Shown: piece after piece, positions 1,080-58,729 of the stretch
Layout of the letters: every line of letters starts with the position of its first letter
Numbering within the stretch: the stretch's first letter is position 1
NCBI RefSeq assembly: GCF_011397635.1
Contig: NC_064761.1
Location: 43,674,143 to 43,738,142 of the forward strand
Reading direction: 5' to 3'
Length of the DNA: 64,000 bases
Source: Epinephelus fuscoguttatus
Taxonomy: Eukaryota > Chordata > Actinopteri > Perciformes > Serranidae
The notes under the pieces: generated by a model
Told to the model about the DNA's origin: nothing
What the model saw: the letters and a program-made list of their open reading frames with translations, nothing else
Database searches by the model: none
Made by a program: the position numbers and the translations under genes

Positions 1080-1680
1080 CACTCATCCTCCGCCTCTCCA
1101 CATCCACCTCGACATCACATCACCTGTGCACTTTCTGTTCCCATCGCTCTGCTCATGGCCAACTCCCTCGTCACTCTATCCTTTATTTTTCTTTCTACCT
1201 TTAATTCTGTTTTATATAGGACTTTTGAACTCACTCGTGCTCTTCTCTTCTGCCATGAAAGAAAACTTCAAGAAGCCTTTATGTCATTGGTCAGTTGAGT
1301 TGTTCGTGGAGTTAATGTGAAGGTTCCTGCAATGCAGGAACAAGGCAGTTGTGCTGTCTTAATGAAGCCTGTGAAGTTGTAAGTTGTGTGAACTGAACTG
1401 AAACTCTGTCGTGAACAGGGAGGTTGTGAAATACATTTCAATGGTTACCACTAGATGGTGCTGTGTAAATAAACTACAGGCAGTTACTCCAACATGGTGA
1501 AGCAGTATTATGCATTTGACAGCTTGGTTCCTCAAACTTTCTTCTGACATCAGATAAGTTATCATGCCAAAAATGTCCTCATTATGTATTTATTGAAGAA
1601 TATTTGGCTTAAGTTGTCATTGTTTTACTTTAAATTCAAGAACTGTATAAATTTACAATAAAATTCTTGACAAAAGAGAA
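1080..1680 (+). other. rab11b 3'UTR
   Basis: This follows the rab11b stop codon and contains no further coding signal. It ends about 20 bp after an AATAAA hexamer at 1657-1662, the best candidate poly(A) signal, so the mature transcript probably ends near 1680. Confidence 0.65.
1657..1662 (+). terminator. Poly(A) signal of rab11b
   Basis: An exact AATAAA lies about 580 bp downstream of the rab11b stop in AT-rich sequence, with no earlier exact hexamer noticed. Cleavage would fall around 1675-1685. Confidence 0.6.
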
Positions 1681-2039
1681 GTGTTGAGTTTATGTCAAAG
1701 TATCTGCAGGAATCCTGGGGTACATTTAACACCGTTTCAAAGAGCTTGTTTAAGACCCTTCCCATACATACAGATCTTATTGTTGCCACTTGGAGCTTTA
1801 ACCAGTCACATCAGTGACTCACTTGAACTTACATCGACTATATATATTGTTTGTGCTGTAAGATGGCACAGCTGAACAGTATCAGCTTGTGATAACTCCA
1901 TGGACCAATGTGTCAATGAATTTCACTACATGTACTTGTATAACCTGTAAAATGTCAAAAAACAAACAAACTCAGCTTTGTTTGCATTAAAAAAACAACA
2001 ACAACCAAAGCAACCAAAAACAAAATAACGTAAATTAAG

Positions 2040-5000
2040 TTATTCAAAAAAGTTACTGTATAGTCCGCCATAAAAGTTTTATTTTGAAATAAATCATAGC
2101 ATAGTATGCAATAAAAATTTGAAAAAGTTGTCATATTATCCCGTTAACATTTCATTCATGGTTTTGTATGTCATAAAAAATCATCTGTGAAAGTCATAGT
2201 GTATTAAGCTGTGAAAATTTAACCTAAAGTATGTCAAGTATATCATCAAGTATGTCATCAAATTATTATTAAAAATCATAGTATAATATACCAAAAATGT
2301 TTTAGAAAAAAAGTTGTAGTATATTTTGCAAAAAAATAAAAATAAAAACAATGATAGTATTGTATGTCATATAAACCTCAGCAAGAAAGTCACAGTACAG
2401 TATGTCACAAAACTGTTGTAAAAAAAATTCATAGTATAATATTTCATACAACTTTCATAAAACAAATCATAGGATGCCAAAAAAAGAACCTGATCAATAA
2501 AGTCATACTGCAGTACATCATAAAACTAAAAAGGTCATGGTATAACACACCTACACATTTTAATTTAAAAAACACATAGTATAGTATGCCATAAAAATAT
2601 TACAAATGTGCCATAAAAAAATATCATGAAATATGTTATAGAATGTCACAAAAATATAATAATGTGTCATAGTAAAGTTTGCTTTAAACATATAAAGAAA
2701 AGTCAAAGTACAGCATGTCAAAAATAGAAAGTGATAAAAATGTCAAAATGATGTATTGAATGTAGTATGTCATGAAAACATCAGAAAATATCATAGTATA
2801 GCATGTCAATGAAACATGAGTAAGAAATGTCATCATATAAATGTAATAAAAATGTCACAGTATAGTATGTCATAAAAATGATCATGAAACATCTCATAGT
2901 AAAATGTCTAAATAACATGATAGTACAGTATGTAATAATTATATAACTGAAAATGTCATAGTATAGTAAGTCTTAAAAATATCATTGAAAAATCTGTTGT
3001 ATAGTATTATTTGAAAATATGATAAAAAAATGTCATAGTATAGTTTGTCATATAAATTTAATAGAAATTATCATTAAACATTTCATAGTATAATGTTAGA
3101 CAAATATGATAAAGTCATAGTACAGGTTGTCATAAAAATAGGATTGAAAGTTTAACAGTTACAAAAAAATGTCAGTATAGTATGTCACCAAAAATCATAA
3201 AAAAACGTCATAGTATAGCATGTCGTCAAAAATCATGAAAAAAGTCATAGTATAGCATGTGGTCCAAAATCATGAAAAAAAAAAATCATAGTATAGCATG
3301 TCATCCAAAATCATGAAAAAAGTCATAGTATAGCATGTCATCCAAAATCATGAAAAAAGTCATAGTATAATATGTCATCAAAATATCATTAACAAAGAAG
3401 TTATAGTATAGCATGTCGTCCAAAATCATTGAAAAAGTCATAGTATAGCATGTTGTCAAAAGTCATGAAAAAAAGTCATAGTATAGTATGTCATCAAAAT
3501 ATCATTAACAAAGAAGTCATAGTATAGCATGTCATCCAAGATCATGAAAAAAACGTCATAGCATAGCATGTCGTCAAAAATCATGAAAAAAAGTCATAGT
3601 ATAGCATGTCGTCCAAAATCATGAAAAAAGTCATAGTATAATATGTCATCAAAATATCATTAACAAAGAAGTTATAGTATAGCATGTCGTCCAAAATCAT
3701 TGAAAAAGTCATAGTATAGCATGTTGTCAAAAGTCATGAAAAAAAGTCATAGTATAGTATGTGGTCCAAAATCATGAACAAAAAGTCATAGTATAGTATT
3801 TCGTCAAAAGTCACGAAAAAAAGTCATAGTATATAGTATGTCGTCCAAAATCATGAAAAAAAAGTCATAGTATAGTATTTCGTCAAAAATCATGAAAAAA
3901 AGTCATAGTATAGCATGTCGTCCAAAATCATGAACAAAAAGTCAAAGTATAGTATTTCGTCAAAAATCATGAAAAAAAGTCATAGTATAGTATTTCGTCA
4001 AAAGTCATGAAAAAAAGTCATAGTATAGTATGTCGTCCAAAATCATGAACAAAAAGTCATAGTATAGTATTTCGTCAAAAATCATGAAAAAAAGTCATAG
4101 TAAAGCATGTTGTCAAAAAATCATGAAAAAAAGTCATAGTATAGTATGTCGTCAAAAATCATGAAAAAAAGTCATAGTATAGTATGTTGTCAAAAAATCA
4201 TGAAAAAAAGTCATAGTATAGCATGTTGTCAAAAAATCATGAAAAAAAGTCATAGTATAGTATTTCGTCAAAAGTCACGAAGAAAAAGTCATAGTATAGT
4301 ATGTCGTCCAAAATCATGAAAAAAAGTCATAGTATAGTATGTCATCAAAATATCATTAACAAAGAAGTCATAGTATAGTATGTGGTCCAAAATCATGAAA
4401 AAAAGTCATAGTATAGTATGTCATCAAAATATCATTAACAAAGAAGTCATAGTATAGTATGTCATCAAAATATCATTAACAAAGAAGTCATAGTATAGCA
4501 TGTCGTCCAAAATCATGAAAAAAGTCATAGTATAGTATGTTGTCAAAAATTATGAAAAAAGTCATAGTATAGTATGTCGTCAAAAAACATGAAAAAAAGT
4601 CATAGTATAGTATGTCATCAAAAATCATGAAAAAAGTCATAGTATAGTATGTTGTCAAAAATTATGAAAACAAGTCATAGCATAGTATGTCGTCAAAAAA
4701 CATGAAAAAAAGTCATAGTATAGTATGTCGTCAAAAAACATGAAAAAAAGTCATAGTATAGCATGTCGTCCAAAATCATGAACAAAAAGTCATAGTATAG
4801 TATTTCGTCAAAAGTCATGAAAAAAAGTCATAGTATAGTATTTTGTCAAAAATCATGAAAAAAAGTCATAGTATAGTATTTCGTCAAAAGTCACAAAAAA
4901 AGTCATAGTATAGTATTTCGTCCAAAATCATGAAAAAAAGTCATAGTATAGCATGTCGTCCAAAATCATGAAAAAAAGTCATAGTATAGCATGTCGTCCA

Positions 5001-14622: not shown

Positions 14623-14632
14623 CTGATCCAAA

Positions 14633-15992
14633 ATGAGCCAGTCCACGAATGAGTCAGCACCTGAGATTGAAACGTGGTCCAAAGAGGACATCCACCACTG
14701 GCTAATGACAGAGGTCAAAGTTCCTCAGAGTTGCGCAGACATATTCATTAAGGAGGAAGTGTCTGGAGAAGAACTCGTTGACTATGAGAAGCAAAATATT
14801 TTAGACTTAGGAATAAAACATGGCCCTGCTGTCAAAATCACATCCTATCTAAAAAGTCTTAAAGAAGGAACACAACATAAGTCACAGTTCCCAGCTGATG
14901 TGGAAAACTGGACAAAGGAGCAAGTGACCCAGTGGTTACTGCAGCACGTGAAGGTCGATGACAAAAAGGCAGAGAGGTTCCAAGAGGAGGATGTGTCCGG
15001 AGATTGCCTTGTTTGTTTCAGCGAGCAGGATTTTGTGGATATGGAGCTGAAAAAGGGTCCCGCTGGCAAGATCATGAAACAGCTACTTCGACTAAAAAAT
15101 GAGGAGTCGGCGCTGCAGCCCGTCAGTCGCCCCTTCAGATGGTCCCTTAGGGACAAAAATAAGCAAGAAAGCACGAAGCCAAAGCCGTCGTCACGGGCGA
15201 CAAAGAGTAAAGAAACTACGGAGGTAAAACTTCAGAATCATCTGCACTGCAGGTCAAATTAAATACAGATAGATGAGAGGTCCCACTGCAGCACTCTGTT
15301 CAATCCAGGTTAAGATTTGATGTTTCATTTTCTAATTTCTAATTTCTCATGCAGAATCCTGCCCCGCTGATCAGAAACACCCTGGATGAACTTTCTACAG
15401 AGGATCGCAAGTCTTTTAATTTCACGCTACAGCTTTACACTGCCTCGAAGTGTAAACCCATTCCTAAGGGCAAACTGGAAGGTAAGGACAGCATGGACAT
15501 CGCCACATTAGTGACCAACCACTACGGACATGAGGAGGCTTTACGTATCACACGAGATATTCTTCAAACCATACATCAGTGTGAACTCGCTTCTAAACTG
15601 GTCAGATACACAGGTAAGAAAACTGAGGTACCTCCGACTCTCTACATACACACATGCTGTATGTTTACACGTGTGTGTCAGAAGTGCAGCATGCATTCAC
15701 TGCAGTGAAGCCTTCAGATTGATCCAGTCTGATTCTGTTTCGCTCGGTGTAACTTTACTGTTGGACTTTATAGAATTCTAATCATTAATCGCTTCATCTG
15801 TGACCTCATTTAATTATTTATACAGATCAAGAGAAGCTCCGTTGCACATCTTGTGATGATGAGGAGGACACAGAGGACTCAGAGAAGTCAGACTCATCGT
15901 CTCGTTCCAGACGTAAACCCAAGAAAGGAAAAGAACAAAATCGTTTCCGTTTCCAGATGAATATGAAAATAGACATGCCATGCTGTAAATGA
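14633..15992 (+). CDS. Short SAM-SAM-pyrin protein, SAMD9-like N-terminal paralogue
   Basis: The exons are 14633-15223, 15355-15613 and 15826-15992, joined at GT-AG sites in phases 0 and 1, giving 338 residues. Residues about 10-73 and 88-150 are two SAM domains, each with a W-[ST]-K-E-x-[IV]-x-x-W helix and a GP-A-K-I end helix; SAM domains mediate self-assembly. Exon 2 (about 198-283) is a pyrin/DAPIN death-fold domain (NTLDELSTEDRKSFNFTLQL, then IPKGKLEGKDSMDIATLV), like those of fish ASC and NLR proteins. Exon 3 adds an acidic-serine stretch, then a lysine-rich patch (RRKPKKGK) that could be a nuclear signal, and stops. Nothing of the SAMD9 SIR2-like, P-loop, TPR or OB parts follows. It may act as adaptor, decoy or regulator of the long protein at 30141; that role is inference. 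The gene structure is well supported; expression is unknown. Confidence 0.85.
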
Positions 15993-27521: not shown

Positions 27522-29846
27522 CAGGGGACCCCAACCTTTTTTGCACCACAGACCGGTTTAATGTTGGCATTATTTTCACGGACCGGCCTTCAAGGTGTGG
27601 CAGATAAATACAGCAAAAATATGGAATAATGGAAACCAACACGACCGGCATAAAAATGAATGTTACGTGCATGAACAATACAACTCTCATAACGCTGAAT
27701 CAGTGGGAGCCCTGGGCTTGTTCCTCTGCAACGAGATGGTCCCATCTAGGGGTGATGGGAGACAATGGCACCCGCAGTGTGCTCCTTATGTCCAGTCTGC
27801 GCTGTAATTTTGTCTTGGTTGCTGTCACTGCAGAAAAGCCCGCTTCACACAGATAGGATGTTGGAAATGGTAGCAGGGTTTTCAGTGCTCTTGTGGCGAT
27901 GTCAGGATATTCTGGCTTGATTTTCATCCAGAACATCAGCAGAGTTGTTGTCTCAAACGTACGTTTAAGGTCACCGTCATTTGCGATCTCCAGCAGCTGA
28001 TCCTCTTGTTGCACAGACATGCTCGATTCGCCCGGTTTGTTCACAAACGGGTCGTGGATCCATTCCTTTGCAATTCGTGGGTCTTTTGTGGTTGGGAAGT
28101 AGCGCTCAAACTCTTGTAAAAGCAAAGACAGGTGGTCGTGCACCAGCTGGGAGAATGCTGGCCCAGGTGAGGTGTCCTCCAAAATCCCTGCTAATGTTTG
28201 AAACATGTCAAATATCCCTCTGTCCACTCGCCGCCCCCACAATTCCAGTTGGCTTTGAATGCAGCTACTTTATCTGCCAACTTGAACACAGTTGTCATTT
28301 TCCCCTGAAGTGACAGATTGAGTTTGTTGAGCAGATTGAATATGTCGCACAAGTAAGCGAATTTGGTGACCCATTCCTTGTCACTGAAATGAGCTGCCAG
28401 TGGCAAGTTTTTTCTGAGAGAAATTTCTGCAGCGGCTCTCGTAACTCAAACACTCTGGCCAGTGATCTTCCTCTGGATAGCCATCTTATTTCTGTGTGTA
28501 AGAGAAGGCGTTTGTGCTCTGCATCCATCTCCTCACAAAGCTGCTCAAACAGACAGGAGTTGAGCGCATGTGCTTTGATGAGGTTAATAACTTTAACGAC
28601 ATCATTCAATACACTGTGAAGTTCAGGTGACATTTTTCGGCTAGCCAGCATTTCTCTGTGAATGAAACAGTGCGTGGACTCACATTCAGGTGCAACCTCC
28701 TTAATCCGAGTAGTTAAACCAGACAGCCGTCCAGTCATAGCAGCAGCTCCGTCCGTGCACACGCCGACACAAAAGGACCAATTCAGTTTTCCTGATAAAT
28801 AATCATTCAGAGACTTGAATAGTTCTGCGGCTGTGGTGTTGGTTGGCAGCTACAGTGCACATAACATATCCTCATGCACATCCTCCTGATAAAGATATCG
28901 CACATAAACAAGTAGTATTGCCTTGTTGTCAATATCAGTAGACTCATCAACCTGGATTGCGTACCACGGTGACTTTTTAATCCTCTCCAACAATTATGCC
29001 TCAATCTCCTCCGCTATGTCCCCAATGCGCCTGGTGATGGTGCTAGCCAAAAGAGGCACCCGTGCTACCTTTTTAACTGCAGCCTCTCCTAAAAGTTCAC
29101 AGCAAATGTCCTCGGCGGCAGGCATGATCAGTTCTTCTCCAATCGTGAAAGGTTTCTTAGCCTTAGCAATACGGTTAGCCACTAAGTATGATGCTCTCAG
29201 TGCACTCACATTTGTTGATGTGGTGGCCCTCAGTAATTGCTTCTGTCCTTCTTGCTCACGTTTTTTTCTTTCAAAAAACTCCAAAGGCTTATCTTTTAAT
29301 CCAGGGTGCTTAGTCTCCATGTGCCGAAGCAGTTTTGAAGGCTTCATTGCCTCGTTTGCCAGCTTGTCGCCACATACTATGCAGAGCGGACTTGGCGCGT
29401 GAGAGTCACCTGTTGCGATAGACCCGTATTTTAAGTAGCACTCCTGGTATTGTCTGTTAAAAGAAGCTTTCTTTTTCTTGGAGGTCGTAGGCTCCTCTTC
29501 TGGCTCCTCAGTTGGCCTTTTCCCCGTTGCAAAGAAGCTCTCCAAAGATGTTTGTTTTTTACTCATTTTCGCTAATTTCTGGGCATATTTTTTTGGGTAA
29601 TGTATCTGATACATTATACGTGATACGTCGTATCACATGACCGAGACAAGCGTATTGACGTGTCAAAAGGCACAGGTGAAAGTTAAATCGGAGAGAATCT
29701 GGTCGTTTTTCAAAATAAAACGTCTTTCAGACTCTGATAATCAATACAATGCAAATTTTATAAATTATTTGTTCTTTCTGTGCGGCCCGGTAACAAATGC
29801 CTCACGGACCAGTACTGGGCCCCGGCCCGGTGGTTGGTGATGTCTG
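27522..29846 (-). mobile_element. hAT transposon (Charlie-like), 2.3 kb
   Basis: It starts caggggaccccaacc and ends with the degenerate complement ggttggtgatgtctg. The flanks GGCTACAG (27514-27521) and GTCTACAG (29847-29854) form an 8-bp duplication with one mismatch. The interior holds one decayed transposase on the minus strand. This is the largest hAT copy in the window and lies about 300 bp upstream of the long SAMD9-like coding exon. Confidence 0.88.
27700..29614 (-). pseudogene. hAT transposase (ZBED/Charlie type), broken
   Basis: The N-terminus has MSKKQTSLESFF and a BED-type zinc finger (CIVCGDKLANEAMKPSKLLR, then HMETKHPGL). The middle has YAIQVDESTDIDNKAILLVY with a catalytic Asp, and MCTDGAAAMTGRL with the next. 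The C-terminus has a hATC dimerisation segment (FPTSYLCEAGFSAVTATKTK) and ends near DHLVAEEQAQGSH. Reading is disrupted by a TAA after GDIAEEIEA (about 28994), by a TAG near 28850, and by frame changes around 28300-28400. The product would be about 600 residues if intact, normal for this family. Inactive. Confidence 0.88.
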
Positions 29847-30130: not shown

Positions 30131-30140
30131 TTGATCCAAA

Positions 30141-33100
30141 ATGACTACGGCAAAGCCTCCTTGTTCCATTGAAAACTGGACTGAGGAAGATGTCCACCAC
30201 TGGCTGATCACAGAGGTCAAAGTTCATCAGACAGATGCAGACAGATTCGTTGAAGAAGAAGTGTCAGGATCAAGTTTAGATGAGTTTAAAAAGGAAGACA
30301 TCTTGGACTTGGGAATAAAACACGGTCCTGCTGTAAAAATCACATCCTATCTAAGAAATCTGAAAAAAGGATCACAACATGAGCCGCAGTTCCCAGCATA
30401 TGTGGAAAAGTGGACAAAGGAGCAAGTGGCCCAGTGGTTACTGCAGCATGTTAGGATATACAACAAATATGCAGTACGATTCCAAGAGGAAGATGTGTCT
30501 GGAGATTGCCTTGTTTGCTTCACGAAGCAAGATTTACTGGACCTGGAAGTGAAAAGCGGTCCTGCTGTAAGAATTCTGTCAGAACTCCGTCAGCTGAAAA
30601 ACAAACCAGAGCCGACACTGGAACCCATCCTTCACACCAGCACAGACCAAACAGAAGCTCCAAATCCCACTCAACCTAAGCTGAGTCTGGCGCAGGCCAC
30701 GGCATCCGAACAACCAGAATCACGTGACAATATTGAATCAAAAACAGACAATACGGTGGAAAATGAACAAGAAAAGACTCAGCGACCATCCAAGAAAGCT
30801 TCAGAGAAGGAGGAAATTCAGCAGCCAAGGCCACGAGACTTGGGGGCCAGGAGAAAAGAGGTTTCTAAAGTAAAATTTCCAATGTTCTATTTTTCATAGT
30901 ATACATTATTGTATCCAGCTTGTTAATGGAGCATTTTGATATGCAACAAAAAGCTTTCAGGATTTTTACTTATTATAGAGTGTGATTAGTAAAGTTTACT
31001 TCTGTTTCTTCCTGCAGACTACAGTCCTACAAGACGCATCCAAGATTAAACTGGAGATAAAGAAGACCCTAGCCAACCTTTCACCACATGACCTGAAAGA
31101 TTTCCATTTCTGCTTACAAGAATACTCAAAATCCAAACATACACCTATTCCTCGGTGTAAACTGGAAAAGATTGACATCATGGACACAGCTACATTAATA
31201 ATTGAGCACTTCAGTAGCAAAGATGCTTTACAAGTCACAAAAGATGTTCTAAAAGAAATCAATCAGCTTCAACTCATCTGTGACCTGGAAAAGAACATGG
31301 GTAAGACAACCATTATAATACTATTCAAATTGTGAAGTTGCATGAAACAAATTGTTTGTTTATTTGTAGTTTGTGTTTTGCTGATTATTTGTGTTACAAT
31401 CTCGTCACCTGTTTTATTTATTTTTTAAGATTTTTTTCTTTTGGGGGGGGGGGCTTTTTGCCTTTAATTGATAGGACAGTATTAAGTGTGAAAGAGTTAG
31501 AGGGAGAGGGGGTGACACACAGCAAATGCTGCAGGCTGGAATCAAACCCACAGCCGCTACTGCAGGGACACTGCCTTTTGTACATGGGATCTATTGAGCT
31601 ACTGGGCGCCCCATCACCTGTTTTAATGACTGTTTTATACTGTTATTGACTTCTGATTCCTCACTCCGCAAGTTTTCTGCAAACTGGTTCAGCTAACAAC
31701 AACAAGCCGTACTCTTTGTTTCTGGATACATTTTGGCCTCACAATTACATCCTACCTATGTTTCAAATGTAATACATACCTGATAGCAGGACAACTCAAT
31801 CTGCATTGTGCAATGTGTCGCGGCTCTGTCAAAAATAGACAAGGCGCAATAGAGTGGCTGCAGTAAACTGGAGTGGCTGCCTGGCAGAGATCACCATAGT
31901 TCACCTTCCTGTGTGTTTTTAAACTTAATAATGCATTTATTTTACTGTTCATACAGGCCAACTGGAGCAGCGGACTCTGTCAGAACATGTTTTGAAGAAA
32001 GAAGCTAACCAGGGTGACAAACTAAAGAATTTATTAACTTGTGGTGGGAACTCACTGGATAATTATAACAGATTTGTTGTTGTAGTAAACAAGAGCAGTC
32101 CAGAACAAGTGCAGTATCTACAGTTCTTGAATAAGCTAAAACTGTTCTGTGTGTTAGATTTTGACCCCAACTCCATTGCTCCAGGTGGACTGTGTCATTC
32201 CTACAGAGAGTCAAGGGTAGCCAATCTTCACACTCCATCACAATATCAAGGACAAACTGAGTCAGTAATCAAGAACCTGAACCTCTGCAAACAGACCAGC
32301 TGGGTCTTCTGCAATGGCAGACATGATCTTGACAGTGACTCAAACAAGGAGTTAGACTATAGGAACTGGCTGAGGAAATCTTGTGGAGTTGTAGACCAAT
32401 TGGTTTCATTCATTTGCAACCCTGAAGTTCTTCTTCATGGAAGAAGTCTCATCATATTCCTCCTGCTTTCACCTGTGGATACTGAGAAAGACCCAATCTT
32501 TGACACCTACAAGTCTTTCATAAAATACACTGAAGAGGAAGGCATCGTCACAATTTGTGAATCTCAGCACTCATATGAGAAATGGAGGGAACTGATACAA
32601 GAAAAGTGTGAGTCTGACATCGACCCACGATCCATATACGCTCTGACCCTTAGCGAAGTCAATGGAACCATAATGGCACTGGGACCACTCAATCAGTCCA
32701 CTGGAAGGCTGCTTCCCTCCTCTGGTTCCAGTGCTGTTGTCCTGAAACAGAAGGATGAAGATTTCATGCCCGCTCTGGACATTTTGTGCCTGAATCAGTG
32801 TGAAAACATTTATGATGAAAACAGTCAAGAGTTTCATGATTTCAGGATCAAAGTTGAGGAGGAGTTCTACAGAGGAGGCAAAGTCAAATGGTGGAACTTC
32901 TACTTCTGTGACAAAGACAAAGACAAGCCATTTGTCAAGCGGGACAAGTATGAAAATGTGAAGAAGATGATCAGGTCTCAGTTGAGAGACTCAAAAAACA
33001 TATGTGCTCTGATCAATCTGTTTCACCATCCAGGCTGTGGTGGCACCACCTTAGCAATGCACGTGATGTGGGATCTCCGTCATGAGTTCAGATGCGCTGT

Positions 33101-35588
33101 GCTGAAAGACAACACACTGCCAAAGACAGAAGTTGCCATTCAAGTTCAAAGGCTCATGAAACTTGAAAGTGAGAGACCATCTCCAGTTTTGCTGTTAATC
33201 GATGACTCAAAGGAAACTGGGAATCCTCATGATCTTGTGAACTGCATACATAAAGCTGCATTAGAGGACAGCTTAAATATAAATATAGATGATGCACCAA
33301 ACTGCAAAGTGATCATCCTTAACTGTGTTCGTTCCCATAGTCCAAAGGACCAGTACAGACAGCACAATCCATCACAAGCTCAATACATAACTGCTTCATT
33401 GACACAAGAAGAACAGAAGGACTTTGAAAAGAAACTCAAAGAGCTTGAAGAAACCCATGAAAACCCTAAAAACTTTTACAGCTTCATGATCATGAAGCGC
33501 AATTTTGAAGAAAAATACATCAATGATCTTGCTCGTAACACACTGGTGAACTTTGATATCAGCAAAAAGGAGGCCCGACTGTTTGCCTTCCTGGCATTAC
33601 TGAACACCTACGTGGCAGGATCTGAAATTTCTCTCTCTCTCTGTGAAGATTTTTTGGGGATGAAAATGATTCGCTGGCAAGAGGACAGTATACTGGACAG
33701 AATGAAGCCATATTCAAACTTTCTCATCATAGACACAGTTGAAGACTGGGGAGGATACAAAGGAATCCGAATCCTTCATCACTCCATAGCATCTGCATGT
33801 CTTGATGAGTTTGAGAGAAGCTGCTATTTGAAAGTAAGCGATATCACTGTAGAGATTCTTCACTGTGATCTGTTCTTCAGTGTTGGAGTTGTCAAACACA
33901 GATTCATGCTATCAATTCAACGAATGTTGATTGAAAGGCAGCGCAAAAAAGGTGAGAGAGATGAGAGAGAGCCATTTTCTCCTCTCATAGGCAAAATCCA
34001 CAACCAGCAAGGGAGACAAACTGTCCAAGAAATCTTTGTGAAAGCATCATCCAGGTTTGTGACAAGTGCATCTATTCCACAGGCACTGGCAAGATATTTG
34101 TGCATCAATGAGCGTGACTTCCCAGAAGCTCTGAAATGGGCAGAAAAGGCCAAGAACATTAAGGAAAACCCATACACATTTGACACAATTGGGCAGATTC
34201 ACAAAAGCAATTTAAAATCTAACAACCACAAAGAAAAGCAGGAGACATCATGCAATCCAGAAGACCTAAACACAAACATTAAAATAGCAGTAAATGCCAT
34301 CACAGCATTTAGAAGAGCTCAAGAGCTGGCAAATGCAGAGGATGAACCTGAGATGGAGGCTGCTGATGATGAGTCAGATGACTATCCCAGAAAGTCATAT
34401 AATGTTTTTGGCTATGTAGGTGTGCTGGAAATTGCCTTCCTTGTCCTTGAGATTTTGAGCAGATTGCCGTTCTTTGAGCAAAGTGATCCAATGAAGAAGA
34501 AGTACTTGCAGAGTTTTCTGGAAAAAACAATCCCAATCACCAGCGTGTATAAGGAGGACAATGAGATCAACAATAGATACGTGGAGATCATCAAAGAACA
34601 CAAGCAGTTTCTCCTCAGTCTGAAAACTGAAGTAAAGGAAATGTTTGAACTTTTTGACTGTTACTTCACATATATAAAAGGGAACAATTCAGATTTTGAT
34701 TCAAAGAATCATCAGACCGTCTGTAGTCATTTCAAAGACTACGTAAATCTTTTTTGCACTGCGCCAGAAGAAAAAAAAAAAGAACGACAAAACAATCCTA
34801 ATCTTGATTTGAAAATCGATATTGAAGAACGAAAAATGTTTCTTGAAGAGAAAAATGCAGATACATTTGCAGGAATTATTCAGCATTTGTACAAACCCGC
34901 TGAAGAGATTGAGAGCATCACAGAATGCTATGCATTCTTACAAAAAAACTTTATCAACAAAAAACAAAACACAAAGGAAACAATCAATTACATTTTGTCA
35001 AACATAGTTCTTTACATTCTGAAACCAAAATCTAAACACGTCAAGAGTAGTAACCACCTCTCTGCTCTACTTTCGAAAACTCTGCAAGATGTAGGACTTG
35101 GGTTTCCCTTCCCCGACCCATACTACCTGGCTTTGCTCTTATTCTGGCCAAGTCCTACTCAGGAAAACACTGAAATCGGGGTATATGTGAGAGCAATTCG
35201 AAACTCATATCACAAGCGCCTGACTTTATGGTTTCGAAACAGGAGCACTGTTGCCCACTTCTTTTTGGGGAAAGAAGAGGGACTCAAGAGGCTTGTTTCT
35301 AAACCCCAACTGGATGAGAACTTTAAAGAGATGCGCCGTGATATCTTGGCACAACACTGGCGGAACGGAGATATATTTAAAGAAAAAGCAATAATTGACC
35401 GCCTTCAACGAGTCAGTGGAACCACTGAGCAAGGAGAGGTGTTTGCTAATTATGGAAAACTGAAGATCCCTGTTCGTCCAGCTCTTATTGCTGGTATAAG
35501 AAGTGGTTTCAGCACAGAAAAGGTTTCTTTCTACCTTGGTTTTGCTGTTAATGGACCCCTTGCTTATGACATCCAGTATGAAAACTAG
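30141..35588 (+). CDS. samd9l: Long SAMD9-like protein with two SAM domains and a pyrin domain
   Basis: The exons are 30141-30869, 31018-31300 and 31957-35588 (phases 0 and 1), giving 1547 residues; human SAMD9 has about 1589. SAMD9/SAMD9L are cytoplasmic antiviral factors that shut down translation. Two SAM domains occupy about 12-75 and 90-152, then a polar linker, then a pyrin domain from exon 2 (about 244-337; LANLSPHDLKDFHFCLQEYS). Exon 3 carries the SIR2-like region, the family motif FYRGGKVKWWNFYF at about 641, a STAND-type P-loop PGCGGTT at 696-702 without the usual lysine, and a Walker B LLLIDD ending at 754. A TPR-like helical part follows, and the OB-like end finishes KVSFYLGFAVNGPLAYD. 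The AlbA-type nuclease domain that precedes the SIR2-like part in mammals is absent, and the introns are too short to hide it. No internal stops are present. The family call is strong; the symbol is approximate because fish carry many paralogues. Confidence 0.92.
31425..31612 (-). mobile_element. tRNA-derived SINE in intron 2 of the SAMD9-like gene
   Basis: On the minus strand it reads gcgcccagtagctcaataga (A-box-like) and later gtgggtttgattccagcctg (B-box-like). The pyrimidine-rich body matches the copy at 8630-8812, and a C-rich run and poly-T close it. It lies between the pyrin exon and the large exon and does not touch splice sites. Confidence 0.75.
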
Positions 35589-35625
35589 GGTAGTTGACTG
35601 TACAAACACATGCAACACAAGCACT

Positions 35626-36143
35626 GAGAAAAAACAAAACAATCACCAGTGTGTATGAGGACAATGGGATCAATAACAGATATGCGGAGATAATCAAAGA
35701 ACACAAGCAGGTTCTCCACAGTTTGAAAACTGAAGGAACTGACTGTCTGTGGTCATTTTAAACAGTATGCAGTTCGTTTTTGCAACACACCAGAGGACAT
35801 AAGAGAATGACAAAACAATCCTAATCTCAATTTGAAAATGGATATTGAAGAAAGAAAATTATTTCTTGAAGAGAAACATGCAGATACATTCACAAGGATT
35901 CTTCTGCATTTGGACAAACCTGTCGAAGACGTTAAGAGCATTTCGAAACTCGAAAAGGAGCACTGTTGCCCAACTGAGACTCAAGGCTTGTTTCTAAACC
36001 CAAACTGGATGGAAAACTGAAAATCCCTGTTTGTCCAGCTCTCACTGCTGGTATAAGAAGTGGTTTCAGCACAGACAAGGTTTCTTTCTACCTTGATTTT
36101 ACTATGGATGGACCCCTTGCTTATGACATCCAGTATAAAACCA
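35626..36143 (+). pseudogene. Partial duplicate of the SAMD9-like 3' coding end
   Basis: Starting about 40 bp after the SAMD9-like stop, three blocks repeat parts of its last exon in order: aatcaccagtgtgtatgagg (like 34535-34640), aatggatattgaagaaagaa with aacatgcagatacattcac (like 34720-34930), and ctggtataagaagtggtttc to gacatccagtataaaacc (like 35460-35585). The intervening coding parts are deleted and frames are broken. This is a decayed partial tandem copy. Confidence 0.85.
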
Positions 36144-43533: not shown

Positions 43534-45193
43534 CTATTTCAGTTCACACAACTCTGCAGTGTCTCCAGGAAGATAAAGCCAAAGTCCAGCATAGAGAGGC
43601 TGAGTGAATGTGGTCTGGACTCTGTGGAGGAGAGTCATGGTTTCAGAGACGCTGTAGAAGGACAGAATACCTGCACTGTGATCCAGGTACACTCCTACTC
43701 TGGAGGACCGAGGACCTGAGACGGGAGTTTGGACTTTGTTGTGATAAAAGTAATAACTGTAATTGTAACAATCTAACGACCAAGATTTGTCATTGAATCC
43801 AAATCCACATTCACCCCCCCCTGCTCTGCTGATATTCTTGTATGCGACTGCTACATAAACTCCTTTCCCTCTCCACTCCACCTCCCAGTAACAACGTCCA
43901 GTCAGACTCTCTCTACTCAGGACCTGATAATAGCGAGTGAATCTGTCTGGGTGTTTAGAATAAGACTGTTGTTGACTCATTACTGTCACTTTCCTGTTCC
44001 CCTCAGATAATAACAGCAGTGTGTGTGCTGTGTTTGGATCCAGTGTGATGTGACGTGAATATCTGAAGAACTCAGCTCTGGTCTTGGGCTCTGGCAGTAA
44101 AACATCCACTTCAGTCCCTGTCAGTGAGACGTTTGTCCATGTGTCCCTCAGAGCGTCCTGTAGTTTATCTCTGACTCCTGACACAGCCGCTGTCACGTCC
44201 TCAAAGTAGCGGCGAGGACGGATGTTGATGCTGGATGAGTGTGTGGCTTCACTGAGTGCTGACAGTGAGGGGTAGTTGTGTAGAAACTGGTTGTGATCCT
44301 CTGTGTGAGAGCTGCTCCAGCTCAGCGTCTTTCCTCTTCAGCTCAGTGATCTCCTGCTCCAGCTTCTCCTGAAGCTCTTTGACTCGACTCACTTCAGTTT
44401 CCTGCTGCCATCTGAGCTGCTGCTTCACATCAGAGCATCTTTTCTCCATGAGACAGATCAGCTCAGTGAAGATCTTCTCACTGTGCTCCACTGCTTTATC
44501 AGCAGAGCGACTGATAGCCTCCACCTCCTGTTGGAGCAGCTTCACATCTTTCTCTGTGTCCTGGATTCTCTGCTGGATGTTTTGTCGACTCTCCAGCTCT
44601 CTCTGCCTCTCAGTCCTTTCTGCTGCAGCTGACACTGTGTCGTGGCCTTTATGTTCATCCACAGAGCAGAGATAACAGATACACTGCTGATCAGTGCGGC
44701 AGAACATCTTCATCACCTCATCATGACGAGAGCAGATGTTCTCCTGCAGCTTCTTGGAGGGCTCCACCAGCTTGTGTTTCTTGAATGGAGCCGAGTCACG
44801 ATGAGGCTGGAGGTGTTTCTCACAGTAAGAGGCCACACACTGCAGACAGGACTTGAAGGCTTTCCGTTTCCTCCCAGTGCAGACATCACAGGCCACATCT
44901 TCAGCTCCAGCATAGCAGTGATCAGCAGGAGCAGCTTGGAGTCCAGTCTTCTTCAGTTCCTCCACTAAATCTGCTAACTTGATGTTTTTCCTCAGGACAG
45001 GCCTCGGTGTGAAGCTCTGCCTACACTGAGGGCAGCTGTAGATTCTCTTCTCATCCTCTCCATCCCAGAAGCTTTGAATACAGTTGATGCAGTAGCTGTG
45101 TCCACAGGGAAGAGTCCCCGGATCCTTCAGTAGATCCAGACAGATGGAACAAGACAAGGTTTCTCGGTCCAGCTCAACTCCTCGCTGCGCCAT
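43534..45193 (-). pseudogene. TRIM copy 1 (RING, B-boxes, coiled coil; SPRY out of frame)
   Basis: A single-exon TRIM gene (finTRIM/TRIM25-like group) encoding a ubiquitin E3 ligase. From [11 protein letters not shown] at 45193 it encodes a complete RING, two B-boxes and a coiled coil. A 2-bp loss in a (TG)n run at about 44299-44307, compared with copy 2, then shifts the frame and gives a stop near 44249. The PRY-SPRY part stays open in another frame (44196 down to 43534), ending YAGLWLYLPGDTAELCELK, the usual form of the family tail. It could still make a RING-B-box-coiled-coil protein of about 314 residues without the ligand-binding SPRY, so it is either a recent pseudogene or a truncated variant. 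An in-frame upstream ATG lies at 45226. Confidence 0.85.
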
Positions 45194-47237
45194 TTCACCT
45201 CGTGGCAGTGACTGTGTGAGTTTCACTCTCTGAGAAGTGAAAGTAGTTTGAGCTCTGATCTAAACATCATGTGTTCCTGCAGTGAATGGAACCTGTCAGC
45301 TCTCTTACGTCACCACCGTGTTGGTTCCACACTGTAGATCTGAAGGGGAGGGAACAAGGAAATGTGTGGACAGAGTGGAGCTGGCTGTGTGTGTGAGAGC
45401 AGGAAGAGGAGGGAGGGCTCATCAAGCGCTGAGTCATTCCAGGAAGAGGAGCAGTTTGACAGAGATACTGTGTGTTTAACACTTGTTTACAACAGAGCTC
45501 ATTTCTCATTTAAAAACACTGATCACTTCATCTTTTAGGAGGTAAACTCTTCTAAGAATCAGAGGGTTTGGAGACGGCTCCACAGTTTTCTAAACTGTCC
45601 CGTAATGAAGTTTCATCAAAGTCATGATTGTTTACAATAATTCTAAAACAGTAAATATGAGACACAGAATTTAATCACTGCTGTAAAGGTAATGAAACTC
45701 CAACAATTAAACTATTAGCAGATGAAAGTCTTTAAGTTATGTTTGAGAGAAAACAGATTCAATTCAGAAAGTCATTTTGAGTAAAAGATGTATTTTGATG
45801 ACAAATACATTTAAACAGCTGATTCAAATTAGTCACTTGGTGCAGATCTGAATCCCCACAGGACCTGAATGCACCAGATTATTTGGTTCTGCAGTTTAGT
45901 TTGTGACATGTTTGTACAGGTGAATATAAAAAGGTTTCTTTTTTATCTTCACCATCAGCCGTTAAACTGAAAACAGGAAACAATACAGGTTCCTGTCAGG
46001 GATTTCAAAATAAAAGGAGGCCGATGAGCAGCAACATTTAAAAAAGCACAATTGGAAAAACATCTACAAGCTAATTGCAAGATTTATCGTTATAAGTAAT
46101 AAAGTAATAATGTTTAGTAAACATGTTTACAGCCTGCTACAAAAACAGTTTTGGTCTCTATAGCTAATTTCTACACTTGTGACAACTGTACACGGGGTGA
46201 ATTTGAACGTAACATTTTTTAAGGCCCAAAGTTACACATATTTAACCCTCTGAACCCTGAGCTCAGTGGTGAGGAAACATGAAAAAAAGACAATGAGAAA
46301 CTTGGTGAGAAGATTTTTCAATGACAAAAAAAATAAAAAACATTTAGGTTTATTTTCAAAGCTCGGGAAAATCTAAACTTATAATTATTGTTATGATTAT
46401 TACATTTTAAAATGATGTTACAGAATTATTATCATTTTTAAGCGCTCTTTCCAGGTTGTTTCATTTTTCATATTTTCTTGTTTTTAACGTTCAATAAATT
46501 TTTGGGTCATTTCTTCTTTAGTCGCCTTTTTCACGCGTTGTTAAAAGAAATAAAGCCAGTTTGCTCAGGTTTCAGAGGGTTGTGGGCGGGGCCGCTTTGA
46601 GTGACAGATTGTCTGCGAGGCGTCGCTACAGTCCACAGCTCTATGGAGTTAGATTTGTGTCTTTATTACATGCGAGAAAATAAATATGAGAGAACAAAAA
46701 TGTTTGAGAGAAAAAATAATATTTGAGAGAAAAAGTTTTCACACTGATAGCAAAAAGTAATAATATTTGAGACTAAAAAAAGTTTTGAGAGAAAGTAATT
46801 TGTAATAGAATAAAAAAAATAATAATTTGAGATTTAAAAAATGATTTCCGAGAAAAAAAACTCTCAAAAAACTTTTTTTTCTCTCAAATATTATTTTTTT
46901 GCTATCAGTGTGAAAACATTTTCTCTCTCTCAAAAAAAGTTTCTCTCAAAACATTTATCGTCTCTCTCTCAAAACCTTTGTTCTCTCAAAAGTCTTTGCT
47001 CTCGTGTCAGGATTTTGCTTTCTCTGTGAAAATAATGTCATGGGCAGGGCCACGTTCCTATTGGCCAGTCTCGATCGAATTGACAGCTGGATGAGGATCG
47101 TCTTGGGAGTCGAATTCAACTGAATCATTCATCCACCATGGTCAATTCACTGTCATAGATGCACTGCGTTATTTGGGAGCGGAGACTCCAATGTTTGGGT
47201 AAGATGACGACACAGATGATGAATGATTCAGTTGAAT

Positions 47238-55423: not shown

Positions 55424-57133
55424 TTAAATGACTTCAGACTGTTTCAGTTCACACAACTCTGCAGTGGCTACATGAAAAAAAAGGAATAATTGAGAAAAAT
55501 AAAGACGTAGTCCAGCGTAGAGAGGCTGAGTGAATGTGGTCTGGACTCTGTGGAGGAGAGTCATGGTTTCAGAGACGCTGTAGAAGGACAGAATACCTGC
55601 TCTGTGATCCAGGTACACTCCTACTCTGGAGGACCGAGGACCTGAGACGGGAGTTTGGACTTTGTTGTGATAAAAGTTATAACTGTTATTGTCACAATGT
55701 AACGACCAAGATTTGTCATTTCGTCCAAATCTACATTCACCCCTCCCTGCTCTGCTGATATTCTTGTATACGACTGCTACATCAACTCCTCCTAATCCTC
55801 TCCACTCCACCTCCCAGTAACAACGTCCAGTCAGACTCTCTCTACTCAGGACCTGATAATAGTCAGTGAATCTGTCTGGGTGTTTAGAATAAGACTGGTG
55901 TTCACTCATTAATGTCACTTTCCTGTTCCCCTCAGATAATAACAGCAGTGTGTGTGCTGTGTTTGGATCCAGTGTGATGTGACGTGAATATCTGAAGAAC
56001 TCAGCTCTGGTCTTGGGCTCTGGTTGTGGCAGTAAAACATCCACTTCAGCCACTGTCAGTGAGACGTTTGTCCATGTGTCCCTCAGAGCGTCCTGTAGTT
56101 TATCTCTGACTCCTGACACAGCCGCTGTCACGTCCTCAAAGTAGCGGCGAGGACGGATGTTGATGCTGGATGAGTGTGTGGCTTCACTGAGTGCTGACAG
56201 TGAGGGGTAGTTGTGTAGAAACTGGGTGTGATCCTGTGTGTGTGAGAGCTGCTCCAGCTCAGCGTCTTTCCTCTTCAGCTCAGTGATCTCCTGCTCCAGC
56301 TTCTCCTGAAGCTCTTTGACTCGACTCACTTCAGTTTCCTGCTGCCATCTGAGCTGCTGCTTCACATCAGAGCGTCTTTTCTCCATGAGACGGATCAGCT
56401 CAGTGAAGATCTTCTCACTGTGCTCCACTGCTTTATCAGCAGAGCGACTGATAGCCTCCACCTCCTGTTGGAGCAGCTTCACATCTTTCTCTGTGTCCTG
56501 GATTCTCTGCTGGATGTTTTGTCGACTCACCTCCAGCTCTCTCTGCCTCTCAGTCCTTTCTGCTGCAGCTGACACTGTGTCGTGGCCTTTATGTTCATCC
56601 ACAGAGCAGAGATAACAGATACACTGCTGATCAGTGCGGCAGAACATCTTCATCACCTCATCATGACGAGAGCAGATGTTCTCCTGCAGCTTCTTGGAGG
56701 GCTCCACCAGCTTGTGTTTCTGTAATGGAGCCGAGTCACGATGAGGCTGGAGGTGTTTCTCACAGTAAGAGGCCACACACTGCAGACAGGACTTGAAGGC
56801 TTTCAGTTTCCTCCCAGTGCAGACATCACAGGCCACATCTTCAGCTCCAGCATAGCAGTGATCAGCAGGAGCAGCTTGGAGTCCAGTCTTCTTCAGTTTC
56901 TCCACTAAATCTGCTAACATGGTGCTTTTCATCAGGACAGGCCTCGGTGTGAAGCTCTGCCTACACTGAGGGCAGCTGTAGATTCTCTTCTCATCCTCTC
57001 CATCCCAGAAGCTTTGAATACAGTTGATGCAGTAGCTGTGTCCACAGGGAAGAGTCCCCGGATCCTTCAGTAGATCCAGACAGATGGAACAAGACAAGGT
57101 TTCTCGGTCCAGCTCAACTCCTCGCTGCGCCAT
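55424..57133 (-). CDS. TRIM E3 ubiquitin ligase (RING, B-box, coiled coil, PRY-SPRY), copy 2
   Basis: An intact single-exon TRIM protein of 569 residues from [11 protein letters not shown]; an in-frame ATG 33 bases upstream (57166) would give 580. The RING is complete (Cys15, Cys18, Cys30, His32, Cys35, Cys38, Cys54, Cys57). B-box 1 spans about 102-131 and B-box 2 about 154-184. The coiled coil covers about 190-300, and PRY-SPRY about 375-555 with HITLDPNTAH, RCYWEVEW and RVGVYLDHRAGILSFYS. RING TRIMs attach ubiquitin; the SPRY recognises the target; many fish members are interferon-induced. MAQRG is preferred because fish relatives start there. The tail is odd: a roughly 20-bp insertion replaces the usual WLYLPGD by RLYFSQLFLFFHVA, and the normal TAG is read as CAG, adding five residues. 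The closest group is finTRIM/TRIM25-like; the exact orthologue is unresolved. Confidence 0.92.
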   Translation of the reverse strand: MAQRGVELDRETLSCSICLDLLKDPGTLPCGHSYCINCIQSFWDGEDEKRIYSCPQCRQSFTPRPVLMKSTMLADLVEKLKKTGLQAAPADHCYAGAEDVACDVCTGRKLKAFKSCLQCVASYCEKHLQPHRDSAPLQKHKLVEPSKKLQENICSRHDEVMKMFCRTDQQCICYLCSVDEHKGHDTVSAAAERTERQRELEVSRQNIQQRIQDTEKDVKLLQQEVEAISRSADKAVEHSEKIFTELIRLMEKRRSDVKQQLRWQQETEVSRVKELQEKLEQEITELKRKDAELEQLSHTQDHTQFLHNYPSLSALSEATHSSSINIRPRRYFEDVTAAVSGVRDKLQDALRDTWTNVSLTVAEVDVLLPQPEPKTRAEFFRYSRHITLDPNTAHTLLLLSEGNRKVTLMSEHQSYSKHPDRFTDYYQVLSRESLTGRCYWEVEWRGLGGVDVAVVYKNISRAGRGECRFGRNDKSWSLHCDNNSYNFYHNKVQTPVSGPRSSRVGVYLDHRAGILSFYSVSETMTLLHRVQTTFTQPLYAGLRLYFSQLFLFFHVATAELCELKQSEVI

Positions 57134-57172
57134 TTCACCTCGTGGCAGTGACTGTGTGAGTTTCACTCTCTG

Positions 57173-57185
57173 AGAAGTGAAAGTA
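57173..57185 (-). promoter_or_regulatory. Possible IRF-binding element upstream of TRIM
   Basis: The plus strand reads agaagtgaaaagt, containing the AANNGAAA core bound by interferon regulatory factors, about 40 bp upstream of the preferred TRIM start. The same word stands at 45233-45245 before copy 1. One short match could be chance, and the position may be in the leader. Confidence 0.25.
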
Positions 57186-58729
57186 GTTTGAGCTCTGATC
57201 TAAACATCATGTGTTCCTGCAGTGAATGGAGCCTGTCAGCTCTCTCACGTCACCACCGTGTTGGTTCCACACTGTAGATCTGAAGGGGAGGGAACAAGGA
57301 AATGTGTGGACAGAGTGGAGCTGGCTGTGTGTGTGAGAGCAGGAAGAGGAGGGAGGGCTCATCAAGCGCTGAGTCATTCCAGGAAGAGGAGCAGTTTGAC
57401 AGAGATACTGTGTGTTTAACACTTGTTTACAACAGAGCTCATTTCTCATTTAAAAACACTGATCACTTCATCTTTTAGTTTGTGACATGTTTGTACAGGT
57501 AAATATAAAAAGGTTTCTTTTTCATCTTCACCATCAGCTGTTAAACTGAAAACAGGAAACAATACAGGTTCCGGTCAGGGATTTCAAAATAAAAAGGAGG
57601 ACGATGAGCAACAACATTTAAATATGTACAATTGGAAAAACATCTACAGGCTAATTGCAACATTTATCATTATTTTTATAATGGATATTTTCATTCATGT
57701 ATATGTTTAGACGTAATGATATAGTTGTTTTTTGTTTTTTAATTTGCCCCAAGTAATAATGTTTAGTAAACATGTTTACAGCCTGCTACAAAAACAGTTT
57801 TGGTCTCTATAGCTAATTTCTACACTTGTGACAACTGTACACGGGGTGAATTTGAACGTAACATTTTTTAAGGCCCAAAGTTACACATATTTAACCCTCT
57901 GAACCCTGAGCTCAGTGGTGAGGAAACATGAAAAAAAGACAATGAGAAACTTGGTGAGAAGATTTTTCAATGACAAAAAAAAGTAAAAAATATTTAGTTT
58001 TTTTTTTTAAAGCTCCAGAAAATCTACAGTTATAATTATTGTTATGATTATTACATTTTAAAATGATGTTACAGAATTATTATACTTTTTAAGCGCTCTT
58101 TCCAGGTTGTTGTATTTTTCATATTTTCTTGTTTTTAACGTTCAATAAATTTTTGGGTCATTTCTTCTTTAGTCGCCTTTTTCACGCGTTGTTAAAAGAA
58201 ATAAAGCCAGTTTGCTCAGGTTTCAGAGGGTTATGGGCGGGGCCGCTTTGAGTGACAGATTGTCTGCAAGGCATCGCTACAGTCCACAGCTCCACCCTCT
58301 CCTCCAAATATGGTCACTTCTGGCTCCAAAAACCAAGATGGCCACGGCTGAAATGCCCAACTTGAGTCCACAAAACCCAAAGGTGACATCACAGTAGCTC
58401 CATCCATTATTATAGACAGTCTATGGTCTTTCCCCAAGCAAGAGAAAGGAAGTGAGGAAGAAAGGAAGAAAGGAAAGGGAAAGAAAGCAAACTGACTTCA
58501 TAAGAAAAGTATTCAAAAGGTGTGTGAGAGAGAGATGGATCAAGAGGGGAAAGGTGCGGGGCCCACACAGACTGCTGATGCAAAGGATCCAATATGTGGT
58601 GCTACATCCCTGAACAGAGGAGGTCAAGGATAATGCATGCGTTTCTCAGTCCTCCATCTGTATGACTCTTAAAAACTGATTTTTTAACAATTTCTACAAT
58701 CCTCTTACGGCTCTTGTTTTAGACATTAC

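Follow-up and report, generated by a model that had tools for sequence, protein, structure and literature searches.

Human SAMD9 and SAMD9L carry one N-terminal SAM domain, an AlbA/tRNase domain (156–385) and a core that runs from a SIR2-like region to an OB domain. The tRNase activity of human SAMD9 lies in the AlbA domain and requires its acidic and basic residues (PMC12331169). This direct tRNase output has been described as setting SAMD9 apart among eukaryotic STAND proteins, the others of which recruit adaptors (PMC13245274). The P-loop of the family bears GGT/S instead of GKT/S as its signature, and AlbA_2 has been lost in some members (PMC5445408). In fish, a gene named SAMD9L was among those raised in poxvirus-infected salmon gill (PMC7509425) and was higher in reovirus-resistant grass carp (PMC8265083). 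Here we describe a gene at 30141–35588 of a 64,000-nucleotide stretch of Epinephelus fuscoguttatus DNA (contig NC_064761.1, referred to hereafter as C10, 43674143–43738142; 'the window'), in which a pyrin domain (PYD) occupies the place of the AlbA domain.

A fish subfamily of SAMD9 proteins with SAM and Pyrin was reported in 2017 (Mekhedov, Makarova and Koonin, PMC5445408). These proteins share the SAM and Pyrin pairing with the window gene; the paper predates the tRNase finding, and the comparison made here is with its text description. Among the matching open-access titles and abstract openings listed, only this paper joined SAMD9 and pyrin in fish. As far as that description goes, the architecture is anticipated in outline. 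New here are the exon model, a controlled test for the absence of AlbA, same-genome paralogues that carry the tRNase residues, and a sibling gene that lacks the SAMD9 core.

Structure of the window gene

The three coding exons (Table 1) joined in frame to give 4644 nt and 1547 residues, and Pfam and phmmer placed the domains in the order SAM–SAM–linker–PYD–core, as the original prediction had read them from the sequence. The introns were of the sizes first given (148 and 656 bp); both have GT/AG ends, the first in phase 0 and the second in phase 1. Translated, intron 1 gives at most 49 residues, and no Pfam family rose above cut-off in the two longest plus-strand frames of intron 2 (two of the 10 frames given). 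The repeat noted earlier in intron 2 proved to be dispersed in the genome, with at least 40 matches including itself (the best 40 of 2604 candidates were scored). Two SAM stretches were recognized by Pfam (SAM_1, E value 2e-17), in keeping with the vertebrate SAMD9 family, and about 95 residues enriched in E, T, P, Q, S and K separate the second SAM from the PYD.

A computed transcript lacking exon 2 was frameshifted, with a stop 12 residues past the join and 255 residues in total, and the first in-frame ATG of exon 3 lies 238 codons inside it. A protein with the whole core therefore needs exon 2. By eye, an AG acceptor was seen 10 nt 5′ of the initiating ATG, with the same acceptor-to-ATG layout in the sibling gene (14623–14633); its position suggests that each of the two genes has a non-coding exon at its 5′ end. 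The sibling has matching boundaries and intron phases on both sides of its PYD exon, which checks the splice model independently.

Exon 2 matched the Pfam PYRIN family above cut-off, with an E value of 4.3e-16 for the whole protein and 1.7e-18 for the exon alone. When a profile made from the two PYDs of the window was run against the PDB, it matched pyrin (2.1e-12), NLRP3 (5e-10), ASC (4.7e-05) and zebrafish ASC (1.2e-04), with pyrin-only proteins also among the matches. Up to E 10, a query consisting of the linker, the PYD and the first core residues matched 23 sequences in the PDB, every one a PYD protein. The AlphaFold2 model of exon 2, made from two sequences, had six helices (pLDDT 84, pTM 0.77). 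In Foldseek the best 12 rows were all PYD-bearing structures, with template modelling (TM) scores, by query, of 0.75–0.83; 32 of the 34 best rows were titled PYD, NLRP, pyrin, ASC, pyrin-only or AIM2 (0.65–0.83), and the exceptions, rows 27 and 28, were egg cytoplasmic-lattice chains. Profile, sequence match to solved PYDs and predicted fold thus support the assignment of exon 2 as a pyrin domain; the profile search and structure prediction put forward with the original prediction both gave the outcome it expected for the PYD.

In the genome searched (1.05 Gb, 26 contigs), the closest PYD was that of the sibling (47% identity, 2.6e-14), and seven more passed 0.001 at 31–39%. There were at least 104 PYRIN matches, two of them inside the window. 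A large PYD cluster was observed at C8:10.67–10.94 Mb.

The core follows the PYD directly, as had been claimed: residues 351–1544 aligned in a single stretch to chain residues 246–1448 of human SAMD9 (9zjr), from just past the tRNase domain to the C-terminus (868 bits, E 1.1e-259; phmmer, whole protein). The order SIR2-like, P-loop, TPR, OB was read from this collinearity; the sub-domain names are those of the human family (PMC5445408), Pfam itself having no match for them. The P-loop, HHPGCGGTT, is of the GGT type. A collinear core, this P-loop and an N-terminal SAM are therefore common to the window gene and human SAMD9/SAMD9L, but the human proteins have one SAM, and AlbA/tRNase where the window gene has its PYD. 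In NLRP3-type sensors a death-fold output likewise precedes a STAND-type P-loop, and of the solved structures those of pyrin and NLRP3 come closest to the window PYD. Unlike them, the window gene has SAM domains before the PYD and a P-loop without the usual lysine, and no NACHT or LRR family was matched in the protein by Pfam up to E 1.

Absence of AlbA from the window gene and its retention in paralogues

Pfam AlbA_2 (PF04326) was rejected as a test for absence. Of three AlbA-bearing paralogues in the same genome, one on contig C13 and a pair on C19, it reached only E 0.08 with one and gave no AlbA match up to 0.1 with the other two. An empty genome search with PF04326 is therefore uninformative, and a family-specific profile, built from these three AlbA domains, was used instead. 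In a leave-out control, a profile limited to the C19 pair recovered the C13 domain at E 1.3e-34. The family profile reported neither the window protein nor the sibling up to E 10, and it had no match among the 6806 open frames of 264 kb around the gene (best E 0.92). The search thus bore out the predicted absence of AlbA from the gene, and the open frames of its neighbourhood offered no AlbA exon that might be spliced in. Whole-genome searches with the C13 and with a C19 AlbA domain, in which the best candidates were scored, gave three matches each, in the same three genes, and none on C10.

The three-domain profile matched chain residues 22–199 of 9zjr and also the rabbit and human crystal structures of the domain (1.8e-47 and 2e-47, respectively). 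Since the window core begins to align only at chain residue 246, the block missing from the window gene is the tRNase. In the C13 gene the AlbA block as cut comprises residues 93–318 and similarity to the window gene begins at 318, indicating that exon 3 starts at the AlbA/core border.

The tRNase residues are E184, E196, E218 and D241, with K198, K214 and R221 (PMC12331169). Mapped by counting along the alignments, all seven appear to be kept in C13 and six of the seven in the C19 genes, which would have K for R221. An AlbA domain with acidic and basic active-site residues, the mark of a tRNase-type SAMD9, was not found in the window gene. The sequence evidence supports well a swap in this paralogue, with AlbA absent and a pyrin exon in the position it would hold. 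The proposal that the nuclease of this fish had been exchanged for a PYD accordingly applies to the window gene and fails for the fish, whose three other SAMD9-type genes keep AlbA with tRNase residues.

The C13 and C19 genes have the same core, 28–34% identical to that of the window gene. Each runs uninterrupted from SAM through AlbA to OB in one frame, unlike the window gene, with its introns at the SAM-SAM/PYD and PYD/core borders; these intron positions would fit exon shuffling. The C13 SAM is under the Pfam cut-off, yet it matches the window SAMs (2.2e-07; 4.8e-07). In C13 and one C19 frame there is no Met before the SAM, and the start codon may sit in an upstream exon. Exon 3 had 11 matches in a genome search. 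Besides the gene itself these were C13, two pieces for each gene of the C19 pair, two C23 genes and three pieces of a 3′ remnant next to the window gene.

In a tree of six core sequences, C10 and C13 were separated from C19 and C23 (SH-aLRT 96.8, ultrafast bootstrap 94). Because AlbA is present in C13, both C19 genes and human SAMD9, and C10 groups with C13, the simplest reading is that AlbA was lost on the C10 branch. Against human SAMD9, the 868 phmmer bits of C10 came from the core only, C13 scored 944 with AlbA and one C19 gene (C19a) 587; the C13 AlbA alone scored 140 bits against 7ksp. By this rough comparison the window core seems at least as close to human SAMD9 as the core of C13, which bears AlbA.

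The sibling gene and other loci

The sibling lies about 14 kb upstream of the window gene and lacks the SAMD9 core. Its PYD matched PYRIN at 8.9e-12 (C10:43689512), and its last short exon encodes an acidic and then a basic stretch before the stop, the tail ending in PCCK. A genome search with its SAM-SAM part gave three matches; besides the sibling, these were the window gene and the C13 SAM. Between window gene and sibling the ratio of replacement to silent change (dN/dS) was 0.22 (NG86) or 0.33 (YN00) for SAM-SAM and 0.45 or 0.66, respectively, for the PYD, replacement being below silent change. In the assembly of the window protein the sibling might serve as adaptor, brake or regulator.

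Apart from this pair and the 3′ remnant (Table 1), tblastn with E up to 1e-4 found no other SAMD9 copy in the 100 kb flanking each side. Close upstream of the gene, at 27700–29632 on the minus strand, lie transposase-like frames; in one of them a BED-type zinc finger matched weakly, under the Pfam cut-off. Two TRIM genes on the minus strand (43534–45259 and 55424–57199) have RING, B-box, coiled coil and PRY-SPRY; the former is split over two frames, and is shifted, spliced or broken. At C23:16911356–16916974 there is a relative of the SAMD9 core from P-loop to OB (open reading frame 1303–4206), with a CARD frame at 4667–4918. A donor directly follows the OB end and an acceptor of matching phase (by eye) precedes the CARD about 500 bp downstream, making a C-terminal CARD fusion likely. 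No N-terminal exons of this gene were recognized in the 6 kb upstream by tblastn with seven proteins. Two more CARDs lie at C23:16940147 and 16961960. Seven pattern matches suggested relatives in viral contigs; none was confirmed.

Table 1. Coordinates of the window gene, its sibling and related features (window positions unless a contig is given)
Feature	Position	Strand	Description
Exon 1 (first coding)	30131..30869	+	10 nt presumed 5′ untranslated region after AG acceptor, coding from ATG at 30141; SAM at residues ~11-69, SAM at ~90-153, low-complexity linker at ~155-250
Exon 2	31018..31300	+	Pyrin domain at residues 244-338; entered in phase 0, left in phase 1
Intron 2	31301..31956	+	656 bp; dispersed repeat at ~31450-31620
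Exon 3	31957..35588	+	SAMD9 core (SIR2-like, P-loop HHPGCGGTT, TPR, OB) to stop
SAM-SAM-linker-PYD sibling	14633-15223, 15355-15613, 15826-15992	+	338 residues, SAMs by Pfam
Broken remnant, duplicated 3′ end of core exon	35624..36142	+	Pieces with 79-96% DNA identity, stop inside one
SAM-AlbA SAMD9-like gene	C13:5.33 Mb		One open frame, 1522 residues
SAM-AlbA SAMD9-like pair	C19:25.24 and 25.25 Mb		One open frame each, 1548 and 1573 residues

Proposed output and alternatives

With gene structure, domain identity, predicted fold, core homology, the absence of AlbA and the AlbA paralogues established, we consider it reasonably probable that the window gene encodes a SAMD9-family, STAND-like protein that has lost its N-terminal AlbA/tRNase effector, has a pyrin domain on an exon of its own in that place, and signals through PYD and ASC. 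We infer from this architecture an inflammasome-like course of signalling. The C-terminal TPR/OB part would detect a viral or damage signal, upon which the P-loop core would open and oligomerize. Aided by the two SAM domains, the protein would cluster, and its pyrin domains would nucleate a filament of PYDs; ASC, the most likely link, would in turn recruit a caspase-1-type caspase. Teleost NLRP3 may bind ASC via PYD–PYD contact, and caspase-1 carries a CARD in vertebrates except cyprinids (PMC8122782), making ASC the natural link in most fish. The window gene would thus probably raise an alarm rather than halt protein synthesis.

Several points weigh against this proposal. Pyrin domains may also inhibit or serve other partners, and no PYD-CARD gene that would be ASC was established among the genome PYD and CARD matches listed. 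None of 213 Foldseek matches reached E 0.001, a shortfall we attribute to how small the domain is; it is the TM scores and the profile that carry the fold call. The dN/dS of 0.45–0.66 for the PYD is not low. The genome searches scored the best candidates only, so that a very diverged AlbA might escape them, and the core tree, with its six sequences, has long branches and no outgroup.

A role as regulator, in which the SAM-SAM-PYD part of both window genes caps PYD filaments or binds AlbA-type SAMD9s via SAM and so damps the inflammasome or the tRNase, is unlikely. Pyrin-only proteins are such regulators in mammals; they were among the PDB matches of the PYD profile, the sibling is a nearby SAM-SAM-PYD gene without the core, and the PYRIN matches of the genome offer many possible partners. 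A pure brake, however, would have no use for the collinear core, which is kept in full at roughly 1200 residues and has the family P-loop. Somewhat less probable again is that the PYD merely oligomerizes the protein and that the true effector is the SIR2-like or another core domain, aimed for example at NAD or RNA. The SIR2-like region is kept and aligned to human SAMD9, but we know of no enzymatic activity of this part of SAMD9 alone. The SIR2 region of rabbit SAMD9 is required for tRNA cutting in vitro (PMC12331169), and bacterial Avs5, a Sir2-bearing STAND protein, has a predicted structure that resembles SAMD9 (PMC12931631). Against this, the human tRNase activity sits in AlbA (PMC12331169), the very block not found in the window gene.

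The broken duplicate of the 3′ end directly downstream and the transposon-like frames just upstream might suggest a decaying or mis-assembled gene, its architecture a functionless accident. This is very improbable: 1547 codons are open across three exons with matching phases, and the sibling repeats the boundaries. The 338 codons of the sibling have stayed open despite a silent divergence between the genes of about 0.6–1.2, while in 2000 runs a simulated neutral frame of that length, evolved with no indels, was open in 1.7% at 0.1 substitutions per site and in 0.05% at 0.2. In addition, each architecture shown in PMC5445408 is, by its text, conserved in at least a small subfamily.

The signalling proposal can be extended, more tentatively and with the odds against it, to a single antiviral sensor chassis, the SAMD9 core, with several outputs in one fish genome: AlbA in C13 and the C19 pair, pyrin in the window gene and probably CARD in C23. 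The window pair would then be a new inflammasome, a SAMD9-type sensor together with a dedicated SAM-SAM-PYD adaptor that a partial duplication had produced.

Fish SAMD9 proteins with SAM and Pyrin have gained in interest since AlbA was found to be a tRNase effector. A paralogue that has a pyrin domain and lacks the nuclease would demonstrate that one and the same sensor accepts either output. Such a natural domain swap lets sensing by the SAMD9 core be asked about apart from translation arrest.

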